From Flavipsychrobacter sp. (GTDB lineage Bacteria; Bacteroidota; Bacteroidia; Chitinophagales; Chitinophagaceae), in assembly GCA_016787265.1 (NCBI GenBank), contig JAEUVF010000008.1, forward strand, positions 62,001 through 126,000: DNA of 64,000 nucleotides, written 5' to 3'. The translations under genes and the position numbers were made by a program. The notes beneath the pieces were generated by a model. That model searched no databases, was not told the origin of the DNA, and saw only the letters and a list, made by a program, of their open reading frames with translations. Positions 16,671 through 19,384 of the stretch are shown here, piece after piece. Within the stretch, counting starts at the first letter, position 1; every line of letters starts with the position of its first letter.

Positions 16671-17114
16671 ATGAACCTTATTCCATATGTGCTTGCATGC
16701 GCATTAATGCTGTCATGCAATAAATCGGTCAGTCGGCCTCCATCACCATCCAGTCCCAAGCCGGTTCCTGGGCAGGTGCAGTTTGAAATTTTTTCAGATC
16801 CTGGTATGAGAAAGGATAAACCTGTGATGATAGAGGCAGGAATCCGGTTGTCTATTCATCAGACCAGGCTTGATAATGCAATGCCTGTCATGATTTGGGA
16901 TACGCTTATCCCAATCCGGCAATTAATCAGTTATCCCGGACCCGAAGCTCCGCTGGTTATTGTAAGGCCAATAGAAATGGTTCGGGGAAAGAAGTTTTTT
17001 TATCATGTAAGTGCTCAAAAAATCTATCACCTGCATCAACAGATTAAAATAGAAGAATTAACCAGGGCGATTGATTCAGAACAGTTGGAGTCTATCCTTG
17101 CTATTGGCCTTTGA
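16671..17114 (+). CDS. Small lipoprotein of unknown function
   Basis: The 147-residue protein has a short lipoprotein signal with C16 (ALMLSC), a Pro/Ser-rich spacer (RPPSPSSPKPVPG) and a domain of about 110 residues with alternating beta-like strands. I do not recognise it. It precedes the 719-residue exported protein by 110 bases on the same strand, and the two may share a transcript, although two hairpins lie between them. Confidence 0.65.
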   Translation: MNLIPYVLACALMLSCNKSVSRPPSPSSPKPVPGQVQFEIFSDPGMRKDKPVMIEAGIRLSIHQTRLDNAMPVMIWDTLIPIRQLISYPGPEAPLVIVRPIEMVRGKKFFYHVSAQKIYHLHQQIKIEELTRAIDSEQLESILAIGL

Positions 17115-17224: not shown

Positions 17225-19384
17225 ATGAGCTGTAGCGAGAGAATTTTACTTTTTTTATTTTACTTTTTTTATTTTTCCCAAACTGCATCTGCCCAGGCTA
17301 ACCTCGCTGAGGCCAATGCATTACTGGATGCTGAGCAGATACAGTACCGACAATTTCTCAATCAGTTCAAAGGAGAAGAGGGGATCAGAATCCGGATACG
17401 CGAATTTGCCTATTTTACGATCGATAGCTTACAGGCTGCATTTTCCGAAAGAGAGGAAGAAAAACCTAAAGAACGGATTAACAGTATAACCAGTCTCCGG
17501 TATTTTTTACAGGCACTCAGGTCCAGTTTACTTCAGCAATTGTACGATGTGTATGATATCCCGTATGCGTTGGAAAAATTTCCGGAAATAGCCCATGCTG
17601 TGGTAAATAATCTTCCCCTGCAGGATATAATGGCGGGATTTGGAGCCAAAAGGACCCAGCTAATGGCAGATGCTTTCAGGATATACCCGGTTGGAAAACG
17701 TTTGCAACAGCTTGCAGATGTTAGAAGAGTGGCGGTTGGTGCGGAGAACCTGATTCCTTTCCTGGAACGAAGACCTGATTTTCCCTATAAAGACACCGCA
17801 CTTGTTTTTATTGCAGAGCGAATTCCCTTGAAACTGGTTCAATATATCAATCAGCAACAAACGCCCCTGGCAACCTATATCAGAAGCGCTCATCACCCTT
17901 TAATTCAGGAACTGGTAAATATGGCCGGCAATCGCAATGTTGGAGAACTGGCTCATTTTGCATCCGGACTGGTTGAGAAAAAGTATACCATCGACAGTCT
18001 GCTGGCTATGCGCAGCTCCAATGTTAACGGGTATTATCAAACATTGGTGAATGCTATTCAGGATTTGCGCAGATCAAGACCAGCCGGTTCATCTGCCGGT
18101 ATGCAACCCGCTCTTCGTACAGCACTGCACGATAAAGCCATGGCTTTTTACATCAAACCAATTAATGATTTGCACGAAAATGGTCAGGCAACAAGATTTG
18201 CAAGCATTCAACCCCTCCGCACTATAGATCTCTATTATCTGATCACCACGGGTGAAGATGAATTATACACTTCCAGTTTTCTGGGAATCTATAGGAGGAT
18301 GATGCAGCAGGTTCCAGCAGGCCGGTCAGACAGCCTGATGGAAATGGTAGCATATGACCAGTTCAGAAAATTTATCAGGATATGCTCTCATTATAATGTG
18401 CTGGGTGATTTTCTTGCCAATATGCCTGAGCAGGAAAGAAAGCTTCTGTTATCCCGGTTTGTTTCCGGCATAGAAGCTGACAGGGAAAGTGGCCTTGAAG
18501 AAGCGATGGATGTAGCCGATGCGTTTATTAGTTTGTCATCCGATTCACTGGCAAATACTATTGTCGGAGAGCTGTTGGAGGAAAACCTTCGGCGGTGCAG
18601 GAATACAGATAATTTCTACGGTATTCGGCTTTACAAAATTTTGGATCAGATTTACCAGGTAGCAAACAATCCGGCTTCCCGTCAGGAACTTTTTGCACGC
18701 CTGGGAAATTATGATTTGCTCTCCCTTAAATCGATCATGGGTTCAGACCAGGTAATTCATCAGCTAGTTATATTTTATGGTGATGAAGATGGCAAGTCTA
18801 GTTATTCCAATTTTTTACAACTGTTCCGGGATACCTCCGTATGGGAAATTGCAAGGCTGCCCAAATGGGTTGAGATCTGTTCGAAAAATTCCCTGCAGCC
18901 TGTAACTATTTACGCCAACCAACCCCTTGACCATACCTTTCGGGAAGATGAAAAGGCGCAACAACAGTTGCTTGGATACCTGGCCCGGCAAAATATAAAA
19001 CCAGGGATTATTATTCACCGCGGCCATAGCTACCACCTTCCGACCACTTTGGGTTACCTCCAGCCTTATATGAAGCTGGCAATATTAGGGTCCTGCGGCG
19101 GGTATAAAAACCTGCTGACGGTAGCGGGAAAAAGTCCTGAAGCCCAGATTGTGGCCACCAAGCAAATAGGGTCAAAATTGATCAACGATCCTATGATTCA
19201 GGAGTTGAATGGGATGCTATTACAGGAACAGGATATTTACTGGCCGGATTTCTGGACCAAACTGAACGATCAGTTCAGCAAATCGGAAGCAACCCGTAAT
19301 CTTTTTGCAGAATACGTGCCACCTTACAGAAATCTGAGCCTGTTTGTGATTCGGCTATTCAATGACGATGCCGCTGTTCTATAA
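17225..19384 (+). CDS. Large exported protein with a possible caspase-like (clan CD) C-terminal domain
   Basis: The 719-residue protein has a signal peptide (hydrophobic FLFYFFYFS then TASAQA) and a long helical region to about residue 510 that I do not recognise. The last 200 residues alternate hydrophobic strands with polar loops: HQLVIFYGDEDG, LQPVTIYAN, PGIIIHRGHSYH (598-604) and MKLAILGSCGGYKN with C624, then AQIVATKQIGS. A strand ending in a His-Gly-type loop and the next strand ending in a Cys is the clan CD plan (caspases, CHAT, gingipains). This is my inference by pattern, not a database hit. Its start overlaps nothing; its end overlaps the convergent ArsC-like gene by 6 bases. Confidence 0.7.
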   Translation: MSCSERILLFLFYFFYFSQTASAQANLAEANALLDAEQIQYRQFLNQFKGEEGIRIRIREFAYFTIDSLQAAFSEREEEKPKERINSITSLRYFLQALRSSLLQQLYDVYDIPYALEKFPEIAHAVVNNLPLQDIMAGFGAKRTQLMADAFRIYPVGKRLQQLADVRRVAVGAENLIPFLERRPDFPYKDTALVFIAERIPLKLVQYINQQQTPLATYIRSAHHPLIQELVNMAGNRNVGELAHFASGLVEKKYTIDSLLAMRSSNVNGYYQTLVNAIQDLRRSRPAGSSAGMQPALRTALHDKAMAFYIKPINDLHENGQATRFASIQPLRTIDLYYLITTGEDELYTSSFLGIYRRMMQQVPAGRSDSLMEMVAYDQFRKFIRICSHYNVLGDFLANMPEQERKLLLSRFVSGIEADRESGLEEAMDVADAFISLSSDSLANTIVGELLEENLRRCRNTDNFYGIRLYKILDQIYQVANNPASRQELFARLGNYDLLSLKSIMGSDQVIHQLVIFYGDEDGKSSYSNFLQLFRDTSVWEIARLPKWVEICSKNSLQPVTIYANQPLDHTFREDEKAQQQLLGYLARQNIKPGIIIHRGHSYHLPTTLGYLQPYMKLAILGSCGGYKNLLTVAGKSPEAQIVATKQIGSKLINDPMIQELNGMLLQEQDIYWPDFWTKLNDQFSKSEATRNLFAEYVPPYRNLSLFVIRLFNDDAAVL

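Follow-up and report, generated by a model that had tools for sequence, protein, structure and literature searches.

A predicted exported caspase-like protein of an unnamed sequence family in the Chitinophagaceae

Peptidases of clan CD share an arrangement of strands around their catalytic pair: their sheet has six strands, five of them parallel and one antiparallel, and the His and Cys lie near each other in space. In the available sections of PMC4357240, the catalytic His of all members is placed at the end of strand beta3 and the Cys at the end of beta4; in PmC11 these residues lie on beta5 and beta6, with four strands before the His. A Gly ahead of the catalytic His is described as a habit of the clan (available text of PMC12445089). 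The C11 peptidases carry the motif HG...AC with an Asp two residues before the Cys (PMC12445089, PMC4850288, each in part), and this Asp, Asp177 in PmC11, belongs to the S1 site according to the sections of PMC4850288 at hand. In separases, a mostly helical N-terminal region precedes a C-terminal caspase-like domain (excerpts of PMC4626109). TPR-CHAT is reported to resemble separase, and the distance between His and Cys is 26 residues in human separase (His2003 to Cys2029) and 42 in TPR-CHAT (H585 to C627; available parts of PMC9729208).

Here we describe a gene at positions 17225-19384 of the window, the 64,000-nucleotide stretch of DNA that was analysed. It is predicted to encode an exported caspase-like protein of 719 amino acids, with a long helical front and a C-terminal domain in which the putative catalytic His and Cys are only 23 residues apart. 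All coordinates of its features refer to the forward (+) strand.

The gene and the layout of its product

The reading frame, taken from the list of open reading frames, opens with an ATG start codon. Compared with two orthologues at 92% identity, it has dN/dS values of 0.029 and 0.027, with dS near saturation, and it is under strong purifying selection. Same-genus homologues from separate genomes have the identical length of 719 amino acids, and this exact length, together with the low dN/dS, argues that the frame is a real gene. Its 3' end overlaps that of a convergent ArsC-like gene by 6 bases (positions 19379-19384).

Conservation was assessed in two sets of homologues. A first alignment kept 46 rows from 53 matching open reading frames, leaving out four duplicate genes (L031-L034), the incomplete L014, one of the identical pair L026/L046 and a 421-aa N-terminal fragment. 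A later set of 137 open reading frames was reduced to 89 that are distinct in their last 150 residues, 88 of which have the C-terminal domain.

Residues 1-23 (17225-17293) read as a signal peptide, a hydrophobic core being followed by A-S-A and then Q, between which cleavage would probably fall; this Gln, Q24, is almost invariant in the 46-row alignment. The sequence of the protein has no further membrane segment. By a simple hydrophobicity test, an N-terminal hydrophobic stretch lies above threshold in 83 of the 89 distinct homologues, one of which is the homologue without the C-terminal domain, and an internal membrane-like stretch occurs in a single one, the 1076-aa copy L036. The signal peptide and its recurrence among the homologues agree with the export that had been proposed from the DNA letters. 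As the conserved domain reaches almost to the C-terminus and no T9SS C-terminal sorting domain was among the Pfam or NCBIfam matches of the protein at E<=10, we infer that it is periplasmic.

In the full-length AlphaFold2 model (mean pLDDT 86.9, pTM 0.72), residues 27-493 (17303-18703) are all helical by secondary structure, and an alpha/beta part begins at about residue 500. The helical region is itself well kept: N314 is invariant in all 89 distinct homologues, and dN/dS over residues 24-500 is about 0.02-0.03. The C-terminal alpha/beta domain, predicted to be caspase-like, spans residues 500-719 (18722-19381). Folded alone with AlphaFold2, residues 483-719 gave a pLDDT of 91.6 and a pTM of 0.89.

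Distribution, further copies and gene neighbourhood

Of 59 relatives searched, 41 have a homologue, as do 104 of 248 genomes of the order, 22 of the 395 searched in the class, which include members of two other families (f119 and f124), and, with the full-length profile, 13 of the 395 searched in the phylum. Searching 395 phylum genomes with the domain only added one piece, a 46-aa frame in genome G162 with an E-value of 0.0017, which we took to be chance. Viral contigs yielded no relative. Within the window's own family, the gene was present in 35 of the 36 genomes among the 59 relatives searched; among the genomes listed in the search of the order, 59 of this family had it and one lacked it, the listing leaving out another 124 genomes that gave no match. 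The nearest named genomes that carry it belong to Flavihumibacter (four loci, 79-92%).

In a tree of the 88 sequences, built by a quick method under LG+G4, the clade that contains the window gene has 14 rows, every one of them from the window's genus, and sits on a long stem of 1.44 changes per column with support of 100. The window's genome also carries an ordinary copy (G000:C7:447618-449837), and 13 of the 14 other same-genus genomes have two copies; the remaining genome, G008, has a single copy, which is of the ordinary type. Thus, the window gene is an additional, diverged copy and, as judged from these sequences, a derived paralogue found only in Flavihumibacter that keeps every conserved residue of the putative active site. 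The widespread copy may be the housekeeping version. A second copy in genome G902 (G902:C4:843383-844075) is broken by one TGA and is possibly a decaying duplicate.

Several other families of the order have a long copy paired with a copy of about 700 amino acids, often lying directly in front of it. The long copies measure 931-1076 amino acids in the loci examined, and open frames of up to 1219 appeared in the search of the order. Head-to-tail pairs lie at L036:6956-12292, L037:883-6201, L038:5474-10268 and L044:6358-11086; in the first three of these loci, the long copy (931-1076 aa) stands directly before one of about 670-700 amino acids. The five long copies make up one side of a branch with support of 98 in the tree of 88, and their extra N-terminal region had no Pfam match above the cut-off.

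The surroundings of the gene differ between the two types. All nine window-type loci examined have a convergent ArsC-like gene behind the window-type gene, followed by a SnoaL-like gene, an order that looks like plain synteny. Just upstream of the window gene, on the same strand, a small gene (16671-17114) encodes a 147-aa protein with a lipoprotein-like N-terminus and no Pfam match; its cluster has members in four of the nine window-type loci, the window included. At 15 of 25 ordinary-type loci, a response regulator and a histidine kinase of the PhoB/PhoR type lie nearby, apparently as one orthologous pair. This pair is present in 14 of 17 same-family loci, where it is divergent (for example, L035:5739-7474). 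It recurs at L038, a locus from another family, in the same direction as the gene, and this changed orientation weakly suggests, from one case, an association beyond inherited neighbourhood. An ABC exporter is near the gene in 11 of the 25 ordinary-type loci, and ATP synthase genes often follow.

Conserved residues and predicted fold of the C-terminal domain

The earlier note had recognised a caspase-like order of strands in the segments FYGDEDG, TIYAN, PGIIIHRGHSYH (containing H598, H601 and H604), MKLAILGSCGG (containing C624) and AQIVATKQ. All of these are present and correctly numbered, and across the homologues their conservation goes far beyond chance. In the 46-row alignment, H598, R599, G600, S602, G622, S623, C624 and G625 do not vary, and 45 rows keep H601. 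In the larger set, D520, D522, H598, R599, G600, S602, G622, C624 and G625 are found in 88 of 88 distinct homologues, H601 and G523 in 87, and S623 in 86. No column of the domain other than C624 has Cys in half or more of the 88 sequences, and C624 follows H601 at a distance of 23 in every one. The conservation expected of the proposed pair, H601 and C624, is therefore found; H604, which had been named with them, is poorly kept, being His in 54 of 88.

The conserved residues form four elements. D520-x-D522-G523 (18782-18793) follows the first strand, and its two Asp residues are possible metal ligands or S1-pocket residues. H598-R-G-H601-S602 (19016-19030) holds the putative catalytic His after strand 595-599, and G622-S-C624-G625 (19088-19099) holds the putative nucleophile after strand 618-621. 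Near the C-terminus, W673, W677, Y697, P700 and N703 (19241-19333) are each kept in 87 of 88. In some ordinary-type copies (L015, L017, L021), the D-x-D-G turn is extended to D-x-D-x-D-G and gives weak EF-hand scores. We do not regard it as an EF hand, since the likeness is confined to D-x-D-G, which sits in a strand-helix turn; the turn is a possible metal site. The 931-aa copy at L038:5474-8266 reads HRGY, with Tyr at the position of H601, and keeps the Cys; by its sequence, it is possibly an inactive partner of the intact neighbouring copy.

AlphaFold2 predicts seven strands in the domain (511-517, 540-544, 548-553, 560-565, 595-599, 618-621 and 641-645). In the domain model, H601 stands directly after the fifth and C624 directly after the sixth, which closes the following helix-strand unit; four strands precede the His strand. 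Two marks of clan CD are thus seen here: the Gly before the putative catalytic His is G600, present in 88 of 88, and the His and Cys close successive central strands in the confidently predicted domain (pLDDT 91.6). The model is compatible with a caspase-like sheet, as the earlier note had anticipated.

Structural searches were less selective. When the Foldseek matches of the domain model were re-ranked, the C11 peptidase iotapain (6nag) came first, with a Z of 8.8 and an rmsd of 4.4 over 183 residues, and two further C11 rows followed at 7.7. Gtr1/Rag GTPases, at a Z of 8.4, are tied with iotapain, and most of the re-ranked rows are small GTPases; Foldseek's own top rows for this model are Ras-like GTPases, the best at an E-value of 7e-4. 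For the full model, the re-ranking was led by the anti-sigma factor DdvA (Z 8.9 over 148 residues), with a C11 zymogen at row 50 (Z 7.1). Among the rows listed for the full and domain models, no clan CD peptidase family other than C11 appeared. Caspase-like and Ras-like GTPase folds have similar sheets. As the best Z is tied with GTPases, the assignment to the clan leans on the motif, on how well it is conserved and on where it lies in the sheet.

Sequence searches place the protein in an unnamed family, as had been suspected. It had no Pfam or NCBIfam match at E<=10, no credible match in PADLOC and none by sequence in the PDB; profiles of the family drew only helical designs, CRASP-2 and EF-hand proteins from the PDB, at E-values of 0.0057 or worse. 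For 46 homologues, Pfam, NCBIfam and PADLOC gave scattered sub-threshold matches alone, and PF03415 (C11) was absent among the 25 of 39 families listed at E<=1. In the window's own genome, nothing matched C11 (PF03415), C14 (PF00656), C50 (PF03568) or C13 (PF01650); three CHAT (PF12770) and two C25 (PF01364) proteins are encoded there, all elsewhere than the window gene. For C80 and C84 peptidases, the comparison is limited to the Pfam and NCBIfam scans of the window protein. A literature search, which missed most subscription papers, found no published description of the family and nothing relevant on Flavihumibacter and peptidases.

Profile-profile comparison of the family gave probabilities of 0.8% against C11 (6 rows, a small and partly fragmentary set without L138-L141), 0.5% against C14 (26 rows), 1.2% against CHAT (28 rows) and 0.2% against C25 (28 rows), all within the level of 19 decoy families. 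Rows with more than one or no open frame had been dropped beforehand (L166 and L169 from CHAT; L172, L178, L179 and L185 from C14; L207 and L213 from C25). In the best local alignment with C11, and likewise in that with CHAT, C624 falls on the catalytic Cys, neither alignment being significant. As a control, CHAT and C14 profiles found each other at 95.6%, and C11 and C25 failed to find the others. Since the method fails to link C11 or C25 to the rest of the clan, its miss here is weak evidence. C13 is likewise unmatched, and the protein belongs, as far as its sequence can place it, to a family without a name within a known clan.

Collectively, these data are consistent with a C-terminal domain of the clan CD caspase type, and we consider it probable that the protein is an active periplasmic cysteine peptidase of the caspase/haemoglobinase fold, the activity being predicted. 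The caspase-like core proposed in the earlier note stands on the conserved His and Cys, on their order after strands in a confident model and on the first place of C11 in the domain re-ranking; the fold score, shared with Ras-like GTPases, does not set it apart. The abundance of small GTPases among the structural rows, and the residues GDEDGKSS, which resemble a shortened P-loop, could instead point to a Ras-like GTPase fold. The Walker A motif GxxxxGK[S/T], however, occurs in none of the 88 C-terminal domains, only 29 of them have Lys at K524, and the protein is exported by its signal peptide. To our knowledge, a conserved His and Cys after central strands is not a feature of GTPases. We rejected this reading on the absence of the P-loop from all 88 homologues, and regard it as very improbable.

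Two further explanations keep the caspase fold. Its chemistry might have been lost or changed, so that the domain would serve for binding, or its Cys and His would work as the pair of some other hydrolase or of a transferase; the copy with Tyr for H601 would suit this, as would a spacing of 23, shorter than any other that we counted or took from papers. A site kept as well as this one (C624 in 88 of 88, H601 in 87) is, however, better conserved than would be expected of a dead site, and we think such a change unlikely. It is about equally doubtful that the protein processes only itself, by one cut in cis that matures the helical part. Self-cleavage is common in clan CD, as in PmC11 at Lys147 (available sections of PMC4850288), and a helical stretch this long ahead of the domain could serve as a pro-domain; yet the invariant N314 and the low dN/dS of that region are more than would be expected of a discarded pro-segment.

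Possible function and comparison with known caspase-fold systems

If the protein is the active peptidase that we favour, then C624 would, after export, be the nucleophile that attacks the peptide bond, with H601 as general base and G622-S623-C624-G625 as the oxyanion region. D520 and D522, after the first strand, would help to form the S1 pocket or hold a metal. The helical part of about 470 residues might, as in separase or TPR-CHAT, recognise a partner or substrate and hold the active site off until bound, so that the enzyme would make a few site-specific cuts in envelope proteins instead of degrading them. More tentatively, we suggest a separase-like periplasmic switch peptidase of an unnamed clan CD family, near-universal in the Chitinophagaceae, whose helical arm would sense an envelope partner and license a few specific cuts. 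Such a switch would be tied to the PhoB/PhoR-type system, with an extra copy in Flavihumibacter and long-short pairs of copies in families elsewhere in the order. This fuller picture is possible, though we would not call it likely.

As the protein is exported, strongly conserved and nearly universal in one bacterial family, it probably serves a core envelope function rather than acting as a defence accessory. If active, it would represent a new family, missed entirely by the profile libraries searched, in the clan that includes the caspases of animal cell death, the separases and the gingipains. With 23 residues from His to Cys, it would also be a compact case for studying the lower size limit of the active-site loop in caspases, and for asking whether control of a caspase-like domain by a helical arm arose outside the cytoplasm as well. 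Its general layout is a known one in a known clan.

The spacing between His and Cys, 23 in all 88 members of the window family, can be set against 34 in C25 (28 of 28 rows fitting the pattern), 37-73 in CHAT (25 of 28 rows, the His of this pattern being approximate), 46-64 in C14 (16 of 26) and 46 in C11 (1 of 6). Among described systems, the C11 peptidases (clostripain, PmC11, iotapain) share the order of strands predicted here as far as the His and Cys, and appear in both structural re-rankings of the protein. Iotapain is, by its PDB title, secreted by Bacteroidota, as the window protein is predicted to be exported. The window family differs from C11 in having HS...SC (HS in 87 of 88, S623 in 86) for HG...AC, and Gly (G622, 88 of 88) where C11 has its S1 Asp, two residues before the Cys. 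It also has no PF03415 match, half the His-Cys spacing (23 versus 46) and a large helical part in front.

Metacaspases and orthocaspases (C14B) have the caspase-like core, the His-Cys pair and their occurrence in Bacteroidota in common with the window protein, which differs in lacking a PF00656 match and in its spacing, the C14 range coming from those relatives' sequences that fitted the pattern. DdvA, a Myxococcus protein that its PDB title calls a transmembrane anti-sigma factor, aligns through residues 709-991 with model residues 483-701 (8rw5 and 8rot, Z 8.9 and 8.5). It does not appear in the rows given for the domain model, and the literature search found no paper on its structure.

Separase (C50) and TPR-CHAT/Csx29 share with the window protein a long helical front and a C-terminal caspase-like domain. 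The spacing of 26 in human separase is close to 23, and that of TPR-CHAT, at 42, is wider. The window protein matches neither the CHAT nor the C50 family of Pfam and has no TPR match. Separase and TPR-CHAT/Csx29 are not known to be exported. The earlier note had taken an exported caspase-like protein with a helical front to be new; the helical front is not new in itself, given the layouts described in the available parts of PMC4626109 and PMC9729208. What is unusual here is not the helical front itself, but the export, the separate sequence family and the tight spacing of 23 residues between His and Cys.
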